64,000 nt of DNA from Kushneria sinocarnis (lineage in GTDB: Bacteria > Pseudomonadota > Gammaproteobacteria > Pseudomonadales > Halomonadaceae), in NCBI RefSeq assembly GCF_003633775.1, contig NZ_RBIN01000001.1, forward strand, positions 186,001 through 250,000, written 5' to 3'. Both the position numbers and the translations under genes were made by a program. Shown here piece after piece: positions 46,918-58,746 of the stretch. Numbering within the stretch: the first letter of the stretch is position 1; the number at the start of each line of letters is the position of its first letter. The notes beneath the pieces were generated by a model. It saw only the letters and a program-made list of their open reading frames with translations, searched no databases and was not told where the DNA came from.

Positions 46918-48198
46918 ATGGCGACCGAGTACATCAAGGCAAGCAATCGGCAGGCGCAGCAGCAGGCTTCGGATCGCTCGACCCGGGAGAAGGTCCAGCA
47001 GCTGATCAGCGCTGTCGAGGAGGAGGGCGAGCCGGCGATCCGTCGCTACTCCGAACAGTTCGATCGCTGGAATCCGGACGCCTTTCGCCTGAGTGACGAG
47101 CAGATCCGGCGCTGCATCGACAGCCTTGATGCGCAGATCATCGAGGACATCCGCTTCGCCCAGCAGCAGATTCGACACTTCGCCCGCGCCCAGCGCGAGT
47201 GCCTGCAGGATCTGGAGATCGAGACCCTGCCCGGGGTGACCCTCGGCCATCGCAACGTGCCGGTGGCGAGTGCCGGCTGCTATGTGCCCGGAGGCCGCTA
47301 TCCGATCGTGGCTTCGGCGCACATGAGTGTGGTGACGGCGAAGGAGGCCGGCGTCGAACGGGTGATTGCCTGCACGCCCCCGGTGGATGGCGAGCCCAAT
47401 GCCGCCATCGTGGCCTCCCTGGCGCTCGGCGGTGCCGACGAGATCTACCTGCTCGGCGGCGTTCAGGCACTGGCGGCCATGGCACTGGGGACCTCGGAGA
47501 TCACCCCCGTGGACATGATCGTGGGGCCCGGCAATGCCTTTGTCTCCGAGGCCAAGCGCCAGCTCTACGGCCGGGTGGGCATCGACCTGCTGGCCGGCCC
47601 CACCGAGATCCTGGTGCTGGCCGATGACAGTGCCGACGCCGAGATGGTGGCCACCGACCTGCTGGGGCAGGCGGAGCATGGCCCCGGTTCGCCCGCGACT
47701 TTGGTCACCACCTGCAGGCAGCTGGCGGAGGCTACCCTCGGGGAGATCGAACGGCAGCTGCAGACGCTGGCGACGGCCGAGGTGGCCGGCCGGGCCTGGG
47801 CCGACCACGGCGAGATCCGGCTGGTCGATGACGAGCAGACGATGATCAAGGAAGCCAATGCCATCGCCGCCGAGCATGTCGAGGTGCTGACGCGTGAGCC
47901 GCGCCGCCATCTCGCGACGCTGAAGAATTACGGCTCCGCCTTCATCGGTCCAGAGACCAATGTAGCCTATGGCGACAAGGTGATCGGGACCAATCACATC
48001 CTGCCGACCCTGGGCGCGGCCCGGTATACCGGCGGGCTCTGGGTCGGCAAGTTCATCAGGACCCTGACCTGGCAGCAGTGCACACCCGAGGCCAGTGTTG
48101 AGATGGGACGCTATTGCTCCCGGCTGTGTGCACTGGAGCGGTTCTGGGGCCACAAGGCACAGGCGGATCTGCGCTTGGCGCGTTACACGAGGGTCTGA
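46918..48198 (+). CDS. HisD-family NAD-dependent (sulfo)polyol dehydrogenase, HpsN-like, not biosynthetic HisD
   Basis: A 426-residue member of the histidinol dehydrogenase family, which oxidises a primary alcohol to a carboxylate in two NAD-dependent steps. The zinc and catalytic residues are kept: LLGQAEHG (Gln, His), AAEHVEVL (Glu-His pair), AYGDKVIGTNH (Asp) and FWGHKAQ (His). However, GTNHILPTLGAARYTGGLWVGKF is the pattern of the HpsN (sulfopropanediol dehydrogenase)-type branch, and no other his gene is near. It heads an operon with a LacI regulator and an SDR. The substrate could be a sulfonated diol, a polyol or an aminoalcohol. Confidence 0.82.
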   Translation: MATEYIKASNRQAQQQASDRSTREKVQQLISAVEEEGEPAIRRYSEQFDRWNPDAFRLSDEQIRRCIDSLDAQIIEDIRFAQQQIRHFARAQRECLQDLEIETLPGVTLGHRNVPVASAGCYVPGGRYPIVASAHMSVVTAKEAGVERVIACTPPVDGEPNAAIVASLALGGADEIYLLGGVQALAAMALGTSEITPVDMIVGPGNAFVSEAKRQLYGRVGIDLLAGPTEILVLADDSADAEMVATDLLGQAEHGPGSPATLVTTCRQLAEATLGEIERQLQTLATAEVAGRAWADHGEIRLVDDEQTMIKEANAIAAEHVEVLTREPRRHLATLKNYGSAFIGPETNVAYGDKVIGTNHILPTLGAARYTGGLWVGKFIRTLTWQQCTPEASVEMGRYCSRLCALERFWGHKAQADLRLARYTRV

Positions 48199-48230
48199 AC
48201 TGTAACGACAGCCTCATGAGGAGCCTGCCG

Positions 48231-49244
48231 ATGACTGCAAGGCAGCGCCGTGTCACTGCCAGCGAGGTTGCCCGCGCTGCCCGGGTCGCGGTATCGACCG
48301 TCTCCCGGGCGCTGCGCGACGATCACCGTATTTCGGCGGCCACCCGTCATCATGTACAGGAGGTGGCGCAACGGCTGGGCTACGAATCGGCGACCCGGCG
48401 TAGCAGTGCGCCGCGGGTGGGGCTGGTCATGGAGCATCTGCACAACCCGTTTTATCCGGCACTGATCGAGCGGCTGTCGCACCGTCTGGCCGAGGAGGGG
48501 GTCGAGCTGCTGTGCATGACCGCCGGAGCGGATGGCCGGCACGAGACAGTCATCGCCTCGCTCGCCCGGCTGAAGGTCGGCGCCATCATCTTTACCACCG
48601 CCAACATCGACTCCGCGGCGGTGAGCGCCTGTGAACAGCACGAGATTCCGGCCATTCTGGTCAATCGTTATATCCCCGGCGCCCGGGCACTGACCGTGGG
48701 CTGCAACAACTATGCCGGGGGCATGCTGCTGGCAGAGTGGCTGATCCGGCGCGGCCATCGCCGGCTGCTGTTCATTCAGGGCGAGCGCCACGCCTCAACC
48801 ACCATCGATCGCCAGAAGGGCGTGCGCGACGCCGCCCGGCGCTATCGCCTGCCTGCCGTGACCCTGGCCGGGTCGAACGCGTACAGCCACGAGGCCGGCT
48901 ACACGGCCATCGGCGCGCTGGCGCGTCACGAACTGCCGGACGCCATCATCGGGGCCAATGACGTGCTGGCGCTGGGGGCCATGGATGCGCTGTGCCACGA
49001 GTGGCAGCTCGCCGTGCCCGAGGCGGTGTCGGTCGCCGGATTCGATGATATCGACATGGCCGCCTGGCGGCGCTACGACCTGACCACGGTACGTCAGCCA
49101 CTGGCGGGCATGGTCGAGGCAGTAGTCGAGGGCGTTCACAGGAGCCTGAAGTACCAGGTGTTCACACCGCGCTCATACCTGCTCGAAGGTGACATCATCG
49201 AGCGGGGATCGGTCGCGACCCGGCCTGCCACCATGGCACTTTGA
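48231..49244 (+). CDS. LacI-family transcriptional regulator
   Basis: A 337-residue regulator. The N-terminal helix-turn-helix VTASEVARAARVAVSTVSRALR and hinge are followed by a periplasmic-binding-protein-like sensor (LVMEHLHNPFYPALIERL to DAIIGANDVLALGAMDAL and VAGFDDIDMA). This is the sugar-type effector fold. The ATG at 48231 has GAGGAG 7 nt upstream; an in-frame ATG at 48216 is less well placed. It sits between the HisD-like gene and the SDR gene in one operon and presumably controls it, with the TGCAAGC sites upstream as candidate operators. Confidence 0.92.
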   Translation: MTARQRRVTASEVARAARVAVSTVSRALRDDHRISAATRHHVQEVAQRLGYESATRRSSAPRVGLVMEHLHNPFYPALIERLSHRLAEEGVELLCMTAGADGRHETVIASLARLKVGAIIFTTANIDSAAVSACEQHEIPAILVNRYIPGARALTVGCNNYAGGMLLAEWLIRRGHRRLLFIQGERHASTTIDRQKGVRDAARRYRLPAVTLAGSNAYSHEAGYTAIGALARHELPDAIIGANDVLALGAMDALCHEWQLAVPEAVSVAGFDDIDMAAWRRYDLTTVRQPLAGMVEAVVEGVHRSLKYQVFTPRSYLLEGDIIERGSVATRPATMAL

Positions 49245-49282
49245 ACCGGGCGGACAACACGCGAGGAAGGGGAGAGGCAGTC

Positions 49283-50029
49283 ATGACGGCTTTTGCAGCA
49301 CAGCGGCGCGTCTGGATCACCGGCGGGCTGGGAGGCATCGGCCTGGCCTGTGCCGAACACTTTGCCCGGGCGGGAGACCGGGTGCTGGTCACGACCCGCG
49401 ATGCCGACCGGGCAAGCCGGCTGCAGTCGCTGCCGGCAGAGATTGCCGGACGGATTGAAAGCGTGACCCTGGATATCCGTGATGAAGCGGCCATCGAGCA
49501 CCTGCTGGCGGCGCATGGAACGCCGGATGTACTGGTCAACAACGCCGGGCTCAATATTCCCCGCCCCTTCAGTGAAATCAGCGGCGCGGATATCGATACC
49601 GTGTTCGATATCAATGTGCGCGCCCTGATGCTGCTGACCCGGGCCGTCGTCAATGCCATGCAGGCGCAGAACGTGGCCGGGCGCATCGTCAATGTCTCCT
49701 CCCAGGCCGGGCTGATCGGCCTGCCGCAGCGTACGGTCTACTGCGCCAGCAAGCACGCCGTGGAAGGGTTCGGCAAGGCGCTGGCGATCGAGCTCAGGGG
49801 CACCGGCATTCGGGTCAACAGCGTGGCGCCCACCTTCGTGGCCACCGAGATGACCCGGGAAACGCTGGCCGATACCACCATGCGCTCGCTGATCGAGCAG
49901 AAGTGCCTGCTTGAAGCACTGCCCGAGCCCGCGGATGTCGCCGCAGCAGTCCACTTTCTCGCTTCCGAGGGCGCCCGCTACATGACCGGTACCACCCTGA
50001 AGGTGGATGCCGGCTGGACGGCACACTAG
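49283..50029 (+). CDS. SDR-family dehydrogenase of the HisD-like operon
   Basis: A 248-residue classical SDR: TGGLGGIG (cofactor), LVNNAGLN, VSSQAG with catalytic Ser, YCASK (Tyr/Lys) and NSVAPTFVATEM. It resembles gluconate 5-dehydrogenase and similar polyol/sugar acid enzymes. A GGGGAGAGG ribosome site supports ATG 49283. It is third in the hisD-like/lacI/SDR set, so it probably interconverts the substrate or an epimer of the HisD-like enzyme. It converges closely (21 bp) with the cupin gene of the reverse operon. Confidence 0.88.
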   Translation: MTAFAAQRRVWITGGLGGIGLACAEHFARAGDRVLVTTRDADRASRLQSLPAEIAGRIESVTLDIRDEAAIEHLLAAHGTPDVLVNNAGLNIPRPFSEISGADIDTVFDINVRALMLLTRAVVNAMQAQNVAGRIVNVSSQAGLIGLPQRTVYCASKHAVEGFGKALAIELRGTGIRVNSVAPTFVATEMTRETLADTTMRSLIEQKCLLEALPEPADVAAAVHFLASEGARYMTGTTLKVDAGWTAH

Positions 50030-50050: not shown

Positions 50051-50470
50051 TCACCGCTCGCAGCGCGCCGGCGCCACCAGGGTGCGTTCGACCTCGGCCA
50101 CGGCCCGGCCGTGCTCATCCACCAGACCGTAGATCCACTGAATGGTGAGGGGCTCGCTGTCGCTGGCATTGATGAAGCGATGCGCGACGTGTGGCGGAAT
50201 AAAGGAACTGTCGAACGGTTCGACCTCGGTGGTCTCCTGGCCTTCGACCACGCACAGGGCGCGGCCGGTCAGGATGGTCACGGTCTCCTCGACGTTGTGC
50301 ACGTGACAGGGCAGGCTGGCGCCGGGGGCGAAGGTGGCCAGCCCGACGATCATGGTGCGAGCGCCATCCTCCCGACGGATCATCTCCCGGAACCGTACGC
50401 CGGGCTCGACTTCGAAGGCCTCGGCAGTGCGGTAGCGGGCCAGGCGTGATGTGCAGGACTGCGAATGCAT
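50051..50470 (-). CDS. cupin-domain protein
   Basis: A 139-residue single-domain cupin. Motif 1 is PCHVHNVEETVTILTG and motif 2 is FIPPHVAHRFIN; the His/Glu metal-ligand positions are present. GGAG lies 8 nt before the ATG at 50470. It is the last gene of the reverse acid-sugar operon (70 bp after the permease). Roles of such cupins in sugar acid clusters include isomerases and substrate-handling proteins, but no activity can be assigned. Confidence 0.8.
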   Translation of the reverse strand: MHSQSCTSRLARYRTAEAFEVEPGVRFREMIRREDGARTMIVGLATFAPGASLPCHVHNVEETVTILTGRALCVVEGQETTEVEPFDSSFIPPHVAHRFINASDSEPLTIQWIYGLVDEHGRAVAEVERTLVAPARCER

Positions 50471-50539
50471 GGCGGTACTCCGGTCGGGGACCGAAGAAGG
50501 CGGGCTTCTCCGGCCCGATGGGCCGTGCCGACGGGACAC

Positions 50540-51577
50540 TCAGGAGCGTGTCAGCGGCTCGGTCGCGGGGGCGGTCGAGGTGTCCGGCTCGTCCTCGAAC
50601 TCCTGCTGCGGGTCGATCCCCCGCTTCATCTGCCAGCGGTAGACCAGCAGTGCCAGCACCGGCGTCAGAATGGCGGTCGTGACCGTGGACCCGGCCACCT
50701 GGGCCGTGGCCGTGGCCTCGATGGCCCGATAGGCGGGGTCGGCTGCCGCGACGACTGCCGGAGTGGCGACGGCCGCGCCGGCGGTGGAGGATTCACAGGC
50801 GCCCGAGATGATATTGCGCCGATAGTGCGGCCGGCGGCGGACGCGATGGACCAGGGCGAGCAGCAACATGGCACCACCGCCGGAGACTACCAGTGTCAGC
50901 AGCCCCAGCAGCACGCCCGGCAGCCCGGCTTCGATCAGGGTCTTGAAGTCGATGCCGGCGCCCAGCGGGAAGGCAAAGAAGGGGATCAGGATGCGCTGGC
51001 CGGGGGCCAGGAAGCGGCGCAGGTTCTCATCCAGATTGCCGAGGATGAAGCCCAGCAGCACCGGGGCGACCACGCCGATGAAGGTCAGCAGCGGAATCGA
51101 GGCCAGCCCCGCGGCCCCCAGTACCAGCAGGGTGAGAAAGGGGCCGTCATTGAGCGAGATGACCGAGACGGCACCGGTATCGGTCTTGTTGCCGAACTGT
51201 TCGGTCAGGGCGACATACATGCCGCTGTTGGAGTTGGTCATGGCCGCCACGATTGCCAGGGGTGACAGCGCCAGCAGGGTGCCCGAGGGCATCAGAAAGG
51301 CTGCGATCAGGGCCACGAGCACGCCGGCAATCAGCTTGCCGATCAGGATGGCGAAGCCCTTTTCGGCGATCGGGCCGGTGGCGCGGATGGGAATCTGGGC
51401 GCCCATGCAGAATAGGAAGGCGCCGATCACCGGCAGTGCGCCCTCCTTGAACAGGGCCTGGGTGAAGCCGCCGATCTCGAGCAGACCGGGAAAGAAGGTG
51501 TTGACGGTGGCGCCCATCAGCAGCGGAATGACCATGATGCCGCCGGGCACCTTTTCGATTGCACCGAGAATGTTCAT
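50540..51577 (-). CDS. 2-keto-3-deoxygluconate permease (KdgT)-family transporter
   Basis: A 345-residue inner-membrane protein with about ten helices and clear KdgT-family sequence: IEKVPGGIMVIPLLMGATVNTFFP at the N-terminus, FCMGAQIPIRATGP, and MTNSNSGMYVALTEQFG. The family imports 2-keto-3-deoxygluconate or other sugar acids with protons. Here the neighbours point to a four-carbon sugar acid or a related acid as substrate. The C-terminal tail is acidic. It follows the dehydrogenase gene by 156 bp, so it could also have an internal promoter. Confidence 0.9.
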   Translation of the reverse strand: MNILGAIEKVPGGIMVIPLLMGATVNTFFPGLLEIGGFTQALFKEGALPVIGAFLFCMGAQIPIRATGPIAEKGFAILIGKLIAGVLVALIAAFLMPSGTLLALSPLAIVAAMTNSNSGMYVALTEQFGNKTDTGAVSVISLNDGPFLTLLVLGAAGLASIPLLTFIGVVAPVLLGFILGNLDENLRRFLAPGQRILIPFFAFPLGAGIDFKTLIEAGLPGVLLGLLTLVVSGGGAMLLLALVHRVRRRPHYRRNIISGACESSTAGAAVATPAVVAAADPAYRAIEATATAQVAGSTVTTAILTPVLALLVYRWQMKRGIDPQQEFEDEPDTSTAPATEPLTRS

Positions 51578-51733
51578 GACGGACCTCGGGTAGGTAGTGA
51601 GGCGAATGAAGCTGAATCAACCGATGCCACGGACACAATCTCTCCGGGTCACGGAACGCGGGGTTTCCGGACCTGTGGTCGATCGGTCTGCCGGCGGACG
51701 GCCGACGCCGGGCAGGGCGCCGGCCGGAACGTG

Positions 51734-52666
51734 TCAGGCGGACTGACGCTTCTTCAGCGCGGCCAGCGTCACCAGATAGCGGTCCCGCCAGGCCATGCGC
51801 TCGTCGCGCTGGTCGGCAGGCAGCGTCTCGCGGCGCGCGCGTTCGAGCTGGTCGAGCAGCTGTTCGCTGTAGCCGTGGCGGGGGCGCGAGGAGTCGGCAA
51901 TCTGCTGATACATCGGCCCGAGCCGGGTCATGTAGTCGCGCACTCCTTCCGGGGCATTGAGATCGATGGTCTCGATCGGCCCCATGAAGAACCAGCGGGC
52001 GCCCAGGCCGTCGCTGACCACCCGGTCGAGGTCCTCGACGCTGAGATAGCCGTCCTCGATCAGGTTGAAGGCCTCGTTGAGCAGCGCCCCCTGCAGCCGA
52101 TTGACCGCGAAGCCGGGAATCTCGCCTCCGAGGGTGATCGGGGACTGGCCGACCTCCGCCATCAGCGCCCGGGTGCGGTCAAGCACTGCGTCATCGGTCC
52201 AGGGCGCGGGAATCAGTTCGACCAGCGGAATCAGGGCCGGCGGATTGACCGGATGCGCCACCAGGCAGCGCTCGCGGTGGGCGAGGGTCTCGGTGAAATC
52301 GGAGGCCGGTATGCCCGAGGTCGAACTGGCCAGCGTGGTATCGGGCGCGGCCAGCTCATCGAGCCGGGCGAACAGTTCCCGCTTGAGCGCCACCCGTTCG
52401 GGAATGTTCTCCTGGACGTGGATGGCCCCCTCCAGCGCCTGCGTCAGATCGCTGCTGATCCGTACCCGCTCCAGCACGCGGGCGGGGGCCTCGTCGAGCA
52501 GCTCGTTGGCGGCCAGCTCCTCGAGGGTCTCACCGACCAGCTCACGGGCGCGGGGCAGCACCTCGGCCTGGCTGTCGAACAGCACCACGTCGTGGCCACC
52601 GCGGGCGAAGACCACCGACCAGCTGCGCCCGATCAGGCCCGATCCGATAATGGCAACATGACTCAT
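51734..52666 (-). CDS. L-gulonate 3-dehydrogenase / lambda-crystallin (CRYL1)-type 3-hydroxyacid dehydrogenase
   Basis: A 310-residue member of the 3-hydroxyacyl-CoA dehydrogenase superfamily. GSGLIGRSWSVVFARGGH binds NAD. VAHPVNPPALIPLVELIPAP contains the catalytic His and is the hallmark of CRYL1/L-gulonate 3-dehydrogenase. GFAVNRLQGALLNEAFNLIEDG and GLGARWFFMGPIETIDLN follow as in that family, and it ends in an RDRYL / LKKRQ tail. These enzymes oxidise the C3 hydroxyl of an acid sugar. In this operon it would supply a 3-oxo acid for OtnK/OtnC. A perfect AGGAGGTG ribosome site precedes the ATG. Confidence 0.88.
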   Translation of the reverse strand: MSHVAIIGSGLIGRSWSVVFARGGHDVVLFDSQAEVLPRARELVGETLEELAANELLDEAPARVLERVRISSDLTQALEGAIHVQENIPERVALKRELFARLDELAAPDTTLASSTSGIPASDFTETLAHRERCLVAHPVNPPALIPLVELIPAPWTDDAVLDRTRALMAEVGQSPITLGGEIPGFAVNRLQGALLNEAFNLIEDGYLSVEDLDRVVSDGLGARWFFMGPIETIDLNAPEGVRDYMTRLGPMYQQIADSSRPRHGYSEQLLDQLERARRETLPADQRDERMAWRDRYLVTLAALKKRQSA

Positions 52667-52735
52667 CTTCCACCTCCTGGTTGACGGCGCGCGGGCGCCG
52701 GGCCGATCCCTGTGCCGGCCGGTAACATGCAGCGC

Positions 52736-53380
52736 TCAGCTCTCCCACCGGGCGCCATGGTGCTCGCAGAGTTCGCCGATCTGATCGGCATCGAGGGTGC
52801 GATACTCGTGACCGTGCAGCAGCAGGAAGAGCTTGGCGGTCTCCTCCAGCTCCTCGGCGGCGCTGACCGTGGCATCGAGGTCCTTGCCGGTGACGATCGG
52901 GCCGTGATTGGCCAGCATCAGCGCGCTGTAGTGTGGCGCCAGCCGGGCGACGTCGTCGCCGAGCCGCTCGTCCCCCGGGCGGCGGTAGGGCACCAGCGGC
53001 AGCCGGCCGATGCGCATCACGAAATAGGGCGTGATCGGCGGCAGCACACTCGCCTCGTCGACGTTCTTCAGGCACGACACGGCGCTGGAGTAGCTCGAGT
53101 GCAGGTGCACGATCGCCTGCGCCTCGGGCCGATGCTTGTAGTAGGCCAGGTGAAAGAAGTACTCCTTGCTGGGCTTGCTGCCGGAGAGGACATTGCCCTC
53201 CCAGTCGAGCTTGGAGATCTCGTCGGCGTTGAGTTCGCCCATGCAGGAGTTGGTGGGCGTGGTCAGCCAGCCATCGTCCAGCCGCACGCTGAGATTGCCG
53301 CTGGTGCCGGGACTGAGCCCGCGGTCGTAGAGTCGCTTGCCGAGCGTGACCAGACGCTGGCGCAGGGTATGTTCATTCAT
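52736..53380 (-). CDS. otnC: 3-oxo-tetronate 4-phosphate decarboxylase-like class II aldolase (OtnC/YgbL)
   Basis: A 214-residue class II aldolase/adducin-fold enzyme. SPGTSGNLSVRL, PTNSCMGELN (phosphate and substrate binding), HLHSSYSSAVSCL with metal His ligands, and LANHGPIVTG follow the OtnC/YgbL pattern. OtnC decarboxylates 3-oxo-tetronate 4-phosphate to dihydroxyacetone phosphate. The start at 53380 (GAGGT upstream) overlaps the end of otnK by 8 nt. Length is close to E. coli YgbL (212). Confidence 0.87.
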   Translation of the reverse strand: MNEHTLRQRLVTLGKRLYDRGLSPGTSGNLSVRLDDGWLTTPTNSCMGELNADEISKLDWEGNVLSGSKPSKEYFFHLAYYKHRPEAQAIVHLHSSYSSAVSCLKNVDEASVLPPITPYFVMRIGRLPLVPYRRPGDERLGDDVARLAPHYSALMLANHGPIVTGKDLDATVSAAEELEETAKLFLLLHGHEYRTLDADQIGELCEHHGARWES

Positions 53381-54623
53381 CGATGACCTCCCAGGCACGG
53401 GTAAACATGTCGGGGGCGCCGAAGTTGCCGGACTTCAGCGCCAGGTGCAGCGGACCATGGCTGGAGTCGGTCCAGGTCCAGGGAACGCCGGGATCGATTT
53501 CCGGGCCGATGCGCAGACTCTCGATGCCCAGTGCGCCGACGATGGCGCCCGCCGTTTCGCCACCGGCGACGATCAGGCGGCCGATGTTGCGGACGATCAG
53601 CCGCCTGGCGAGTTCCGCCAGCGCTCGTTCCACCAGCGCACCGGCGGCTTCGACCCCCAGCTGCTGCTGGGCCTCGCGCACGACCTCGGCTCGGGTGTCG
53701 CTGTGGATCAGCAGCGGCGCGCCCAGCTGTGGCAGCGCCCACTGTTCGATCGCGGCGAGGGTGGCGTCGAAATCGTGATGCAGTTCGAGCGGGTCCAGGG
53801 CCCGGGTCGGCATCCGGGCACGGGCATGTTCGATCTGCTCGCGGGTGCGCTGCGAGGCGCTGCCGGCCAGGATCAGCGCGCCGCCCTCGGGCGCCGGCAG
53901 GGCGGCCGCCCGGCCGCTCGGCGATGAATAAAGCGCCCCCAGCCCGAGTGCCAGCCCGGAGCCCCCGGTGACCAGTGGCATGTCGCGGCTGGCCAGCGCA
54001 ATGGTGGTCAGGTGGGCGTTGCGCAGGGTGTCGGTCACGAGCAGCCGGTGCCCCTGGGCCTGCAGCTCCTCGAGCCGGTCGCGGGCGGCCGCTTCGCCAC
54101 GCTCGATGACCTCGGCCGACAGCAGCCCGACGCGCTGTTCGGTCTGTGCCTCGAGCCAGCGCACGAGGTTGGCATCGGTCATCGGGTTGAGCGGGTGGTG
54201 CTCCATGCCGCTCTCGTTGAGCAGGCTGCCGCCCACGAACAGATGGCCCTGATAGACGGTACGGCCGGTGGCCGGGAAGGCCGGGCAGAACAGGGTGGTG
54301 TCACAGCCGAGCGCCGCCATCAGCGCCTCGGCCACCGGGCCGATATTGCCTTGCGGGGTGGAGTCGAAGGTCGAGCAGTACTTGAAGTAGAACCTTTCGC
54401 AGCCCTGGCGCTGCAGCCAGCTCAGGGCGTCCAGCGACTGACGTACGGCGTCGGCTGCCGGAATGCTGCGCGACTTCAGCGCCACCACGATGGCATCGAC
54501 GTCTTCGGGCGCCGTGGTCGGCACGCCGATGGTCTGGACGGTACGAAAGCCGCTTCTGACCAGGTTGTTGGCCAGGTCCGTGCCGCCGGTGAAATCGTCG
54601 GCAATACATCCGATCAGGGCCAT
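53373..54623 (-). CDS. otnK: four-carbon acid sugar kinase (OtnK/YgbK, DUF1537)
   Basis: A 416-residue acid sugar kinase of the former DUF1537 family; OtnK phosphorylates 3-oxo-tetronate at O4. The N-terminal substrate domain starts IGCIADDFTGGTDLANNLVR, then VALKSRS and FYFKYCSTFDSTPQGNIGPV. The C-terminal ATP domain has VAGGETAGAIVGALG and the closing PWTW segment. A perfect AGGAGGT ribosome site precedes the ATG; the start overlaps the deoR end by 10 nt, so translation is coupled. Confidence 0.9.
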   Translation of the reverse strand: MALIGCIADDFTGGTDLANNLVRSGFRTVQTIGVPTTAPEDVDAIVVALKSRSIPAADAVRQSLDALSWLQRQGCERFYFKYCSTFDSTPQGNIGPVAEALMAALGCDTTLFCPAFPATGRTVYQGHLFVGGSLLNESGMEHHPLNPMTDANLVRWLEAQTEQRVGLLSAEVIERGEAAARDRLEELQAQGHRLLVTDTLRNAHLTTIALASRDMPLVTGGSGLALGLGALYSSPSGRAAALPAPEGGALILAGSASQRTREQIEHARARMPTRALDPLELHHDFDATLAAIEQWALPQLGAPLLIHSDTRAEVVREAQQQLGVEAAGALVERALAELARRLIVRNIGRLIVAGGETAGAIVGALGIESLRIGPEIDPGVPWTWTDSSHGPLHLALKSGNFGAPDMFTRAWEVIDE

Positions 54624-55426
54624 GGGACCTCCTTCGGTTCATCGGCCGTCCGGGGGGCGGTAAGCGTGACCGTGTCGAGTGCGATGTCGCGCTCGATGAT
54701 CGCCTCGCGAGCACTTTCGGCCAGCCGGTCATCGGTGACGATCAGGTCGAAATCCTCCAGCGCACAGGCCCGGAACATGCCGAATCGGCCATACTTGGAG
54801 CTGTCGGCGACCAGCACGCTCTTGGAGGCGATCTGCAGCAGCTGCTGCTTGACCAGGATCTTCGATTCATCCGGCGTGGTCACGCCGCGTTCGAGATGCC
54901 AGGAAGAGCTGCTGAGAAAGGCGATGTCGACGTTGACCTGGCGCAGGAACTCCACCACCGAGGGGCCGACCGCCGAGTAGTTCTCGTGATTGACCCGGCC
55001 GCCGGTATGAAAGAGCTCGATGTGCGGGTACTGCGCCAGCAGCGCCGAGATGTGAAAGTTGTTGGTGACTACCGAAAGATCGTTGTGCTCGGTGAGCAGG
55101 CGAGCCATGGCGAAGGTGGTGGTGCCGGCATCGAGATAGATCGACATGCCGTCGTGGATCATGGCCGCCGCCCGCCGGGCAATCGCCTCCTTGTGCTCGA
55201 TGCTGGCAGTGGTCTTCTCCTGCCAGGCGGGCTCGTGACGGAACCGGGCAGCCAGGCGCACCCCGCCGGAGACCGAGAGCACCCGGCCCTCCTGTTCAAG
55301 CTGGGCGATATCGCGGCGTACCGTCATGTGGGAGACCCCGAGCAGGTCGGTCAGCTCGCTGATGGTCAGTACGCTCTGCCGGTCGAGCAGTTCCAGCAGG
55401 TAGTCGCGTCTTTGCGTGGGTATCAC
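54614..55426 (-). CDS. DeoR/GlpR-family transcriptional repressor
   Basis: A 270-residue regulator with the DeoR helix-turn-helix TISELTDLLGVSHMTVRRDIAQLEQEGRV and a C-terminal sugar-phosphate sensing domain (DGMSIYLDAGTTTFAMARLL, LSVVTNNFHIS, DSSKYGRFGMF). I start at GTG 55426, so that VIPTQRRDYLLELL leads the domain at the usual place. Longer in-frame starts (55495, 55669) run through a 19-bp palindrome that looks like an operator. It is the first gene of the acid sugar operon and probably represses it until a phosphorylated intermediate accumulates. Confidence 0.9.
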   Translation of the reverse strand: MIPTQRRDYLLELLDRQSVLTISELTDLLGVSHMTVRRDIAQLEQEGRVLSVSGGVRLAARFRHEPAWQEKTTASIEHKEAIARRAAAMIHDGMSIYLDAGTTTFAMARLLTEHNDLSVVTNNFHISALLAQYPHIELFHTGGRVNHENYSAVGPSVVEFLRQVNVDIAFLSSSSWHLERGVTTPDESKILVKQQLLQIASKSVLVADSSKYGRFGMFRACALEDFDLIVTDDRLAESAREAIIERDIALDTVTLTAPRTADEPKEVPWP

Positions 55427-55634: not shown

Positions 55635-56543
55635 TTAAGCGGGAGCGTGCGGCCGTGACGTATCGCCATCCGGGTGATGGCAGAAGTCGATGAAACGCGC
55701 CAGCAGTGGGCTGATGTACTTGTCGCGGTGGGTGATCAGGTGAAACTGGCGCGGCATCGCCAGATCGATCTCGAGTTCACGCAACCGGCCATCCGCCAGG
55801 GCATGGCGGGCTTCCAGTTCGGAGACACAGGTCAGCCCCATGCCGGCGGCAGTCGCATTGATGATCGCTTCGGTGGCGTTGAGCTCGAGTGCGGTCTGCC
55901 AGTGTTCAAGCCGAGCGGCCAGAAAGTGCATGAACTGCTCCCGGGTACCGGAACCGGGCTCGCGCAGCACCCACTGCTGATGTTCGAGGTCGGCCACCGT
56001 GGCAACACGGCCGACCAGCGGATGCTCCGGAGCCGCCGCCACCAGCATGCGATCGTGGCGCCAGGTTCGGGCCATCAGCGGTGCGTGATCGATCCGGCCC
56101 TCGACCATGCCGATATCGAGCTCGAAGGCGTTGAGGGCCTCACCAATGGTGGCGCTGTTGACAATGGTGACCTGCTGATCGGTATGGCCGGTAAGACGAC
56201 GGAATCCCTGCAACAGCGACGGCAGCAGCTGGTGACCGATGGTATAGCTGGCACCGATTCGCAGCTTGCCGGACAGCTGCGTATGGCGATCGAAGAGCTG
56301 CTCGACGGTGGCGGCGCGGCCGAGCAGCTCATCGGCCAGCGGCAGCAGCTGGCGCCCCAGGTCGTTGATGAACAGCCGGTTGTGATGACGATCGAACAAC
56401 CGGTGGCCGTAGCGCTTCTCCAGTTCGGCCAGCGCTGCGCTGACTGCCGGCTTGGTCAGATGCAGGGCTTGCGCGGCGGCGGTCAGCGAGCCCTCGTGCA
56501 CGATGGTGACAAAGACACGCAGCTGGCGCAGGGTGATCGCCAT
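55635..56543 (-). CDS. YeiE-like LysR-family regulator
   Basis: A 302-residue LysR regulator. The winged helix reads ITLRQLRVFVTIVHEGSLTAAAQAL to KPAVSAALAELEKRYG, and the effector domain contains GKLRIGASYTIGHQLLPSLL, FELDIGMVEG and LREPGSGTREQF. These blocks follow E. coli YeiE closely. YeiE of enterobacteria is reported to respond to sulfite. It starts 4 bp after the molybdoenzyme gene, so it is made with the enzyme it probably controls. The start at 56543 gives the canonical N-terminus; the long upstream frame overlaps the molybdoenzyme gene. Confidence 0.85.
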   Translation of the reverse strand: MAITLRQLRVFVTIVHEGSLTAAAQALHLTKPAVSAALAELEKRYGHRLFDRHHNRLFINDLGRQLLPLADELLGRAATVEQLFDRHTQLSGKLRIGASYTIGHQLLPSLLQGFRRLTGHTDQQVTIVNSATIGEALNAFELDIGMVEGRIDHAPLMARTWRHDRMLVAAAPEHPLVGRVATVADLEHQQWVLREPGSGTREQFMHFLAARLEHWQTALELNATEAIINATAAGMGLTCVSELEARHALADGRLRELEIDLAMPRQFHLITHRDKYISPLLARFIDFCHHPDGDTSRPHAPA

Positions 56544-56547
56544 CGTT

Positions 56548-57621
56548 TCAATGCTCTCCGACGTGAAGCGGCCAGGCGATGACGGCGTTGTAGAGACATC
56601 CATGATCGTTCCACGGCACCCGGTCGGGCTGCACGTTGCCGGCCTCGTCGATGGCGCGTACGCGCAGCTCATGCTCGCCGGGCGCCAGCTCGGTGATGAC
56701 CGACCAGCGTACCCAGGCAGCGGGCAGGTTGGGGGCCTCCAGTCGGGCCGGCTGCCACGCGCCGTCATCAAGGCGATACTCGACCCGCTCGACCCGCCCC
56801 TCACCGGAGAAGGCCCGGCCGCGAATCACCTGCCGGCCGGCGGCGAGCCCGGCCGGCCAGTCCAGTTCGGGGACGCTCATCACCGGCATCACCGTGATGG
56901 GGATGCCATCGGCCTCGCCTTCGGCAGGGTAGTCCGGACCGGCGAGGGTATAGTCCCGGGTGTTCCAGTACGTATTCTGCTCATGGGCCGCCACGCGGAT
57001 TCGCCCCAGCCACTTGATGCTGGCCGCGCCCAGCCAGCCGGACACCACCAGCCGGGCAGGGGCGCCGTGATCACACGGCAGCGGTTCACCGTTCATCGCC
57101 AGTGCGATCAGGGTATCCTCAGCCAGCGCCTTGGCCAGCGGTAGCGGCCGGGCGAAACGCCCCTCGTCGAGTCCTTCCGGCAGTACGCTGATCGCCTCCG
57201 CCGTCACGCCGGCCTGCTCGAGCACATCGCGCAGCCGTACACCGCTCCATTCCGCTACCCCGATTGCGCCGCTGCGCCACTGGGCGCCCTCGGCCGGCTC
57301 GCCGAAGTCATGGGCGAAAAAGGCCCGGGCGTTGCCGGCGCACTCGATGGCGCGCGTGATCGAGACCTGCGGCAGTGCCTGCAGGGCCGCCAGATCGAGC
57401 GTGATCGAGCGCTCGAGGCCGTCACCCTCGAGCTGCAGTGTCCAGGTGCGGGGGTCGATCTCGGGTGTGGCGGTATGGTTGCGGATATAGAACAGGGCGG
57501 CAGGCGTCAGATAACCCGCCAGCTGCGATAACCGGGTTTCGGCATTGGACTCGCCGCCCTCGGGGGGATGGGTGAAATATCGTGTGGCCAGCGACTTGTG
57601 AATGGCGGGACGTTGCGACAT
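56548..57621 (-). CDS. sulfite oxidase-fold molybdopterin oxidoreductase
   Basis: A 357-residue protein with the sulfite oxidase catalytic fold (about residues 30-235) and the Mo-co dimerisation domain (about 240-350; PGEHELRVRAIDEAG). The molybdenum-ligand Cys is in AIECAGNARAFF, and DHGAPARLVVSGWLGAASIKWL is a family block. No Tat twin-arginine signal is visible, so it may act in the cytosol, unlike most SorA/YedY enzymes. Sulfite is the natural candidate substrate given the exporter and regulator beside it. AGGAG lies 9 nt before ATG 57621. Confidence 0.88.
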   Translation of the reverse strand: MSQRPAIHKSLATRYFTHPPEGGESNAETRLSQLAGYLTPAALFYIRNHTATPEIDPRTWTLQLEGDGLERSITLDLAALQALPQVSITRAIECAGNARAFFAHDFGEPAEGAQWRSGAIGVAEWSGVRLRDVLEQAGVTAEAISVLPEGLDEGRFARPLPLAKALAEDTLIALAMNGEPLPCDHGAPARLVVSGWLGAASIKWLGRIRVAAHEQNTYWNTRDYTLAGPDYPAEGEADGIPITVMPVMSVPELDWPAGLAAGRQVIRGRAFSGEGRVERVEYRLDDGAWQPARLEAPNLPAAWVRWSVITELAPGEHELRVRAIDEAGNVQPDRVPWNDHGCLYNAVIAWPLHVGEH

Positions 57622-57765
57622 GCCGGTTGGCTCCTGTTGACCTCGGGAAGGCTTGCGAGGCTCTCTCCGGGCAGTGTAGTAGTGTCGCAATTCCGGTGCT
57701 GCCGCGACGTGACGGATGTCCGCGCGGCAGGCGCTGGAAGACCCGTTGCCCACGGGCGGCGGGCC

Positions 57766-58746
57766 TCAGCCCGGATGGCCGGAGAGATCGGTCATCGCAA
57801 GACGTTGTCCGTAGTAGGTGGCATAGCGCAGCGCGACATACCCGACGACCACCGTGGCCACGGTGAGTTCGATATCGGCCAGTGTCTGCACCTGCGCCAC
57901 CAGCGAGCCCGGCACGCCCTGGCTTGCCAGCCATCCGGCGGTCTTCGCCATCGCCGTGGCGCCGATCACCATCGGGAAGGTGAAGGCGGCATGGGCGGGG
58001 CTGAAGGGCAGACGCAGCAGCCGGAAGAAGGCGAGATAGATCACGACCGTCATCAGCAGCGCGATGCTCCCCAGCAGGGCCACCAGCAGCGGTGAGGGCT
58101 CGGCGGACACGGTCAGGTAGCCGGCCAGACTGAGACTCGCCGGGGCCGCCATGATGGCGATGGTCGGCTTGGCGGCATCCGGGATCTCGGCTGAGAAGAT
58201 CAGCCGATGCACCATCACCGGCAGCAGCAGGGCGTACATGATCATGCCGAACCAGAGCAGACCCAGGGCGAGCGGCTGCAGGGCCGGTACCCCGGGAAAG
58301 GCGACATCGGCCACGATGATCCCGACCGGTGGCACGAACCAGCCCGGCACCATGTGGTGCAGCCTGAAGTCGCGGCAGCGATGAATGACGAAGGCGCTCA
58401 GAAAGATCAGATGCAGCCCCACTGCCACCAGCCAGAGCGCCGTACCAAGGCTGGGCACCCAGTGACCGAAGGCCTTCGAGACCACCATGAGGGCCATGGC
58501 GAAGGTGGGAACGACACTGCCGACCACCGGGTGGGCCAGATCCTGGCGCAGTGACTGCGGATGGCGGATGAAACGAACCGCCAGGATCAGCAGCAGGACT
58601 GCAGCGATGGCTGCGCCGGCTTGCTGGGCAACCCCCTTCAGCGCAGTAAGGCTCTCCCAGCTCCACCCGAGGCTGGCGATACCCAGGGCCAGCCCGGCCA
58701 TGGGGGTCGGGGCACCACGGATGACGTCTTCAAGGCGAAGTAACAT
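57766..58746 (-). CDS. TDT-family (TehA/SSU1-like) exporter
   Basis: A 326-residue membrane protein with about ten helices of the tellurite-resistance/dicarboxylate transporter (TDT) family. This family includes TehA, SLAC1 anion channels and the fungal SSU1 sulfite pump. PTPMAGLALGIASLGW starts the first helix, and HHMVPGWFVPPVG and PAHAAFTFPMVIGATAM are characteristic. AGGAG precedes the ATG by 6 nt. It is first in a set with a sulfite-oxidase-fold enzyme and a YeiE-like regulator, so sulfite export is the favoured role. Confidence 0.82.
   Translation of the reverse strand: MLLRLEDVIRGAPTPMAGLALGIASLGWSWESLTALKGVAQQAGAAIAAVLLLILAVRFIRHPQSLRQDLAHPVVGSVVPTFAMALMVVSKAFGHWVPSLGTALWLVAVGLHLIFLSAFVIHRCRDFRLHHMVPGWFVPPVGIIVADVAFPGVPALQPLALGLLWFGMIMYALLLPVMVHRLIFSAEIPDAAKPTIAIMAAPASLSLAGYLTVSAEPSPLLVALLGSIALLMTVVIYLAFFRLLRLPFSPAHAAFTFPMVIGATAMAKTAGWLASQGVPGSLVAQVQTLADIELTVATVVVGYVALRYATYYGQRLAMTDLSGHPG

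Follow-up and report, generated by a model that had tools for sequence, protein, structure and literature searches.

The window analysed here is a 64,000-nucleotide stretch of the genome of Kushneria sinocarnis, a relative of Halomonas and Salinicola (NZ_RBIN01000001.1, positions 186,001-250,000; the source genome is labelled G000 among the family genomes compared below). Six open reading frames, all uninterrupted and all on the minus strand, lie between positions 50051 and 55426, and their coordinates, families and overlaps at the first two junctions agree with the original prediction made for this DNA. Besides the kinase and decarboxylase of tetronate catabolism (otnK and otnC) they include a CRYL1-type dehydrogenase, referred to here as CDH. 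The first five genes, deoR-otnK-otnC-CDH-kdgT, probably constitute an operon for the catabolism of a four-carbon aldonate, in which CDH would provide a second, isomerase-free entry to 3-oxo-tetronate. The genes are, in order of transcription:

deoR, 54614..55426, minus strand: GTG start; DeoR-family, YgbI-like regulator (NF040890, 275.6 bits, under the cut-off of 400)
otnK, 53373..54623, minus strand: 3-oxo-tetronate 4-kinase, DUF1537 family (NF043035, 570.7 bits, cut-off 350)
otnC, 52736..53380, minus strand: 3-oxo-tetronate decarboxylase family (NF043034, 305 bits, cut-off 250; PF00596 Aldolase_II)
CDH, 51734..52666, minus strand: lambda-crystallin/L-gulonate 3-dehydrogenase-type protein (NF004783/PRK06129, 426.6 bits, cut-off 347)
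kdgT-type permease, 50540..51577, minus strand: PF03812, 358.8 bits (TIGR00793, 261.9 bits, under the cut-off of 453.8)
Cupin_2 protein, 50051..50470, minus strand: PF07883, 58.5 bits

From deoR to the cupin gene the junctions are overlaps of 10 and 8 bases (-10, -8) followed by gaps of 69, 156 and 69 bases. The identification of OtnK and OtnC in the original prediction holds, as both score above their equivalog cut-offs, and the best PDB entries for OtnK are 5dmh, 3dqq and 1yzy. No other protein of this genome passes the OtnK cut-off, though it has one DtnK-like relative. The permease is a member of family PF03812, although it does not reach the KdgT equivalog threshold, and probably takes up the acid, while the YgbI-like protein is probably the local repressor.

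The assignment of CDH as a CRYL1-type enzyme was borne out by both sequence and fold. Rabbit and human lambda-crystallin, a lens protein of mammals, rank first in phmmer searches and match over nearly the full length, with 3ado (E 8.7e-70, residues 4-307) and 3f3s (E 1.5e-64, residues 4-306) the best PDB chains. The AlphaFold model (mean pLDDT 91.1, from a 27-row alignment) finds human CRYL1 and rabbit L-gulonate 3-dehydrogenase as its top three PDB matches in Foldseek, with TM scores of 0.90-0.93; those ranked 4-50, mostly hydroxyacyl-CoA dehydrogenases, score 0.61-0.81. CDH resembles L-gulonate 3-dehydrogenase (EC 1.1.1.45) over the full length of the sequence, in fold and in catalytic residues, with D31, S117, H138, E150 and N189 aligning with rabbit D36, S124, H145, E157 and N196. 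The roles of the His, Glu, Asn and Ser residues we take to be catalytic, and D31 presumably confers a preference for NAD.

CDH was searched for in 201 Halomonadaceae genomes, and matches of at least 77% identity were found in three of them, the source genome, G090 of the same genus and Salinicola corii, all with deoR-otnK-otnC-CDH-kdgT in the same order. The deoR copies of G090 and S. corii are 90-91% identical to that of the window, and dN/dS among the three genomes is 0.02-0.23 across the five genes (0.10-0.23 for CDH alone). This five-gene order, present in two genera, is kept under purifying selection and is more than chance. The otn-linked CDHs form one clade (support 100/99) in a tree where rabbit CRYL1 sits on a long branch (2.01) with an unsure placement. 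In the comparison for horizontal transfer, the operon genes are 77-91% identical to their S. corii counterparts, a range that overlaps the 54-85% seen for other genes common to the two genomes. OtnK and CDH are also both present in G311, G428 and G526, on different contigs. The original prediction had proposed a search for genomes in which all six families co-occur without otnI; five of the families are indeed linked in the three genomes, but the cupin is not, and OtnI is encoded elsewhere in the same genomes.

In the available portions of PMC12540250 and PMC10580937 the described route runs through LtnD or DenD, OtnI, OtnK and OtnC, with a bypass through 2-OtnK. DenD is described in the latter as forming 2-oxo-tetronate (PMC10580937, available portion), so the statement in the original prediction that it gives the 3-oxo acid was wrong. 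Neither OtnI nor LtnD is found among the operon genes. While the claim that no OtnI gene is present is thus correct at the locus, the genome encodes both OtnI and DenD on another contig (C7), in a cluster of GntP, DenD, a GntR/FCD regulator and OtnI that is without ltnD, otnK and otnC. The C7 DenD scores 459.1 bits and the C7 OtnI 398.1 bits, against a cut-off of 325 in each case, with OtnI also reaching 342.7 bits for the hydroxypyruvate isomerase model, under its cut-off of 353.45. Among the 16 genomes searched for DenD and OtnI (OtnI also with an E. coli query in the source genome), counterparts of both exist in G090 and S. corii, and G090 shows the same split as the source genome, with a GntP-DenD/GntR-OtnI cluster that has no LtnD. 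No LtnD equivalog was found in the source genome, where the best match was of 84 bits and 28% identity and a homologue on contig C8 scored 141.7 bits (cut-off 350). Given the OtnI and DenD on C7, to say that CDH stands in for the dehydrogenase plus isomerase was too strong.

An operon that lacks an isomerase thus calls for a search of the whole genome, which here places OtnI beside DenD on a different contig. Among 30 OtnK loci of the family (top matches, ~1.4 kb each side), LtnD and OtnI adjoin 14, LtnD only 2, TctA and neither of these 13, and one has none of them, with CDH at 0; as an adjacent otnI is missing in many OtnK loci, its absence means little by itself. The 13 loci that have TctA-type transporter genes but no LtnD or OtnI within that distance are L057, L060-L065, L069, L074, L075, L077, L079 and L085. 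Within the genus, G015 has a full GntP-DenD/GntR-LtnD-otnK-otnC-OtnI cluster, and OtnI lies ~0.75 kb from OtnK in seven of the ten members searched; the two are split in G000 and G090, and G097 has neither. This comes close to the otnI adjacent in close relatives that the original prediction had regarded as speaking against it, but the OtnK of G015, the only one of the seven included in the OtnK tree, belongs to a clade other than that of the window OtnK.

From these gene identities we infer the transport, reactions and regulation of a pathway in which the acid would be imported by the KdgT-type permease and its C3 hydroxyl oxidised by CDH with NAD+ to 3-oxo-tetronate, which OtnK would phosphorylate at C4 and OtnC decarboxylate to dihydroxyacetone phosphate (DHAP), with the DeoR protein as repressor of the operon. 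The DenD-OtnI (D-erythronate) route of this genome, which has no otnK-otnC of its own, probably ends with the same OtnK and OtnC, and CDH would be an additional entry rather than a substitute for the whole upper pathway.

A wider view of the core came from deoR, which was searched for in 275 family genomes and found in nine (E<=1e-60). The weakest match, in G017, belongs to an LtnD-OtnK-OtnI-YgbI-OtnC cluster and was left out, giving eight genomes with a deoR-otnK-otnC module: G000, G090, G115, G101, G133, G136, S. corii and G107. The first six of these have a DenD and OtnI cluster without otnK-otnC, and their other OtnK matches, where there are any, are DUF1537 relatives of 30-32% identity. 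That DenD and OtnI are kept without otnK-otnC in six of the eight suggests that the module OtnK and OtnC take 3-oxo-tetronate, and the window enzymes probably serve the DenD-OtnI branch too. The canonical cluster of G115, G101, G133 and G136 still contains DenD, LtnD and OtnI but no otnK-otnC, and deoR-otnK-otnC is located elsewhere beside a zinc-ADH gene (L090:10831-11883; also L089, L145 and L146), which is convergent with otnC and positioned where S. corii has CDH-kdgT, between the same FUSC/RecG-like flanks. At the same site G107 (L150:5285-10874) has a GntP permease, a DRL-type oxidoreductase, deoR, otnK and otnC, a candidate isomerase-free route. The three CDH-linked OtnKs form one clade (SH-aLRT 99) and, together with the four zinc-ADH-linked ones, a joint clade (SH-aLRT 100) apart from the canonical OtnKs in a tree built without the G107 OtnK, with the two OtnKs of S. 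corii falling one on each side of this division. The deoR-otnK-otnC core appears to be fixed and the entry oxidoreductase, whether CRYL1-type, zinc-ADH or DRL-type, exchangeable. Tentatively, CDH may be a so far unassigned tetronate 3-dehydrogenase that feeds 3-oxo-tetronate straight to OtnK, with the enzyme at the entry to this core changing from species to species.

On the reading that seems most likely, CDH would be an NAD-dependent 3-dehydrogenase, with L-threonate or L-erythronate, which have an L-configured C3 hydroxyl, as the likeliest substrates. The relatives of CDH inspected were 27 of the 36 listed matches at 279-341 bits (those with loci, L030-L056; 47-54% identical; ~1.5 kb each side), and 17 of the 27 adjoin a beta-keto-acid cleavage enzyme (BKACE), which supports 3-oxo-acid chemistry for the wider family. 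The arrangements seen at these loci are SDR-CDH-BKACE (often with DctM), an HpsN-like hisD gene (often with LacI) and an MBL-fold gene with an SDR. The CDH family prefers L-3-hydroxyacids; L-threonate is (2R,3S) and L-erythronate (2S,3S), the same as L-gulonate at C2 and C3, and it is this preference together with these configurations that points to the two acids. On L-threonate the proposed reaction would be that of L-threonate 3-dehydrogenase, which we take to be EC 1.1.1.129, a classical activity that to our knowledge was long without an assigned gene. In favour of L-threonate, LtnD is missing in the source genome and from the G090 cluster. L-erythronate is favoured by the gene content of S. 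corii, where LtnD, DenD and OtnI are present together with a cluster tentatively covering D-threonate, and of the tetronate isomers this is the one for which no candidate route is predicted there. The activity name 'L-threonate 3-dehydrogenase' appears in the available portions of PMC4756382 and PMC10476524.

The cluster tentatively assigned to D-threonate lies on C8 in the source genome (L104:3163-12910), where kdgT is found with genes for a LarA racemase, LarB, a nickel-insertion protein, a DtnK-like kinase, and PdxA-type and LtnD-like proteins; similar kdgT-LarA-DtnK/PdxA2-type clusters are present in G090 and S. corii. These may cover D-threonate in the three CDH genomes, an assignment that is tentative because the kinase (186.8 bits, D-threonate kinase cut-off 450) and PdxA protein (341.5 bits, D-threonate 4-phosphate dehydrogenase cut-off 583) of the source genome are both under their cut-offs. 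As a KdgT-family gene also stands beside DtnK-like and PdxA-type genes here, a KdgT-type permease in an acid-sugar operon is not unusual. The known D-threonate cluster (DtnK, PdxA2) likewise combines a DUF1537 kinase with a KdgT-type permease, but its dehydrogenase is of the PdxA2 type, and in that route phosphorylation comes before oxidation.

With the L-threonate/D-erythronate pathway (E. coli ygbI-ygbJKLMN and the Brucella cluster) the operon shares the OtnK and OtnC equivalogs, a DeoR/YgbI-type regulator and the 3-oxo-tetronate/DHAP end. The differences are that the operon includes a CRYL1-type dehydrogenase, that no LtnD was found in the genome, that OtnI and DenD are encoded on a separate contig, and that a KdgT-type permease takes the place of the E. 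coli YgbN. An OtnI-free route has already been described, using LtnD, 2-OtnK and an FBA-type 2-OtnC (PMC12540250, available portion). This three-step L-threonate bypass likewise has no isomerase step, as in the proposed CDH branch, but proceeds by C2 oxidation with an F_bP_aldolase OtnC, in contrast to the Aldolase_II OtnC and proposed C3 oxidation here. In a literature search with most subscription papers outside it, no CRYL1-type tetronate 3-dehydrogenase was described among the titles and abstract openings listed.

Other readings of the locus were considered. The substrate of CDH might be a 3-hydroxy acid with a longer or branched chain, resembling L-gulonate, with OtnK and OtnC processing the resulting 3-oxo acid; the nearest solved relatives of CDH are L-gulonate 3-dehydrogenases, and relatives of KdgT, from the family name, carry 2-keto-3-deoxygluconate. 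This seems unlikely given that OtnK reaches 570.7 bits with the 3-oxo-tetronate kinase model but no more than 110.3 with that for OiaK (cut-off 700), and that the window OtnK clade supplies the only close OtnK in the six genomes keeping DenD and OtnI. It also seems quite unlikely that CDH is an unrelated 3-hydroxyacid dehydrogenase lying in the operon by chance, with the pathway being DenD-OtnI-OtnK-OtnC spread over two loci. Related CDHs do occur in BKACE, HpsN-like and MBL contexts, and zinc-ADH or DRL-type genes adjoin the same core in other species, but the conserved gene order, the low dN/dS of CDH and the separate clade of otn-linked CDHs argue against chance. It is improbable that CDH does the work of 2-dehydrogenase and OtnI alike, leaving the organism to degrade tetronates without isomerase: the locus lacks LtnD and OtnI genes and no LtnD equivalog was found in the genome, but OtnI and DenD are above curated cut-offs on C7, and G090 and S. 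corii encode counterparts of both. The three-step bypass through 2-OtnK and 2-OtnC is ruled out, as the OtnC here is of the Aldolase_II family (PF00596) and not an F_bP_aldolase.

Several points weigh against the proposal that CDH is a C3 entry to the tetronate pathway. CDH is 42.6% identical to rabbit CRYL1 (129/303 aligned residues; 38-40% in structural alignments), from which it also differs in its bacterial acid-sugar context and in having G118 in place of C125. Its relatives at L030-L056, besides the 17 beside BKACE, adjoin an HpsN-like hisD gene in 7/27 cases and an MBL-fold gene in 3/27, with otnK beside 0/27, and given this and the distance from CRYL1 the substrate of CDH could have drifted. 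Linkage of CDH to otn genes is seen in only three genomes, all Halomonadaceae: among the 23 loci from a contig scan for CDH, otnK was adjacent solely in S. corii (76%), and no further CDH-otnK linkage was found in the class sample of 369 genomes (~1.5 kb each side for most loci). The 156-base gap means that co-transcription of CDH and kdgT is presumed, and a promoter and terminator scan was at shuffle level (4 terminator sites versus 3.0). S. corii has a complete canonical cluster (LtnD, DenD, OtnI) besides its CDH operon, so that neither D-erythronate nor L-threonate requires CDH in that species. In G107, neither DenD nor OtnI was detected with the thresholds applied, and no LtnD search was made there. 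These two of the eight module genomes fail simple displacement and do not bear on the OtnK substrate.

The operon is real and narrowly distributed, and looks like a new and uncommon variation on a known pathway. Were CDH a tetronate 3-dehydrogenase, it would provide a gene for EC 1.1.1.129 and a candidate route for L-erythronate, and would give an additional entry, at C3, to a pathway whose descriptions have until now begun with oxidation of C2. More broadly, OtnK and OtnC are constant whereas the oxidoreductase at the entry and the permease vary, at a single chromosomal site in the case of Salinicola-type genomes, and this pattern offers a way of predicting new acid-sugar dehydrogenases.

The cupin, proposed originally as an extra pathway step, is not part of the conserved unit. 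It was found in none of the other 200 of the 201 family genomes (E<=1e-15) and is absent beside kdgT at both other copies of the operon (L001 in S. corii and L087 in G090). It was rejected as a conserved pathway enzyme on this distribution (1/201 genomes) and on its weak PDB matches (best E 1.5e-06) and mandelonitrile lyase score (32.6 bits, cut-off 140). Beyond it, at 46918-50029 and convergent to the operon, are an HpsN-like gene (sulfopropanediol 3-dehydrogenase-type, hisD-like), a LacI regulator and an SDR. In G090 a Na/Ca-exchanger gene abuts kdgT, and the hisD-like/lacI/SDR/cupin stretch of the window is extra relative to that genome. The HpsN-like protein was dropped as a supplier of the acid from an alcohol, being at the equivalent place in neither G090 nor S. 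corii. On the other side of the operon, at 55635-58746, a YeiE-like LysR gene, a molybdopterin oxidoreductase and a SLAC1 channel look like a set for sulfite handling.

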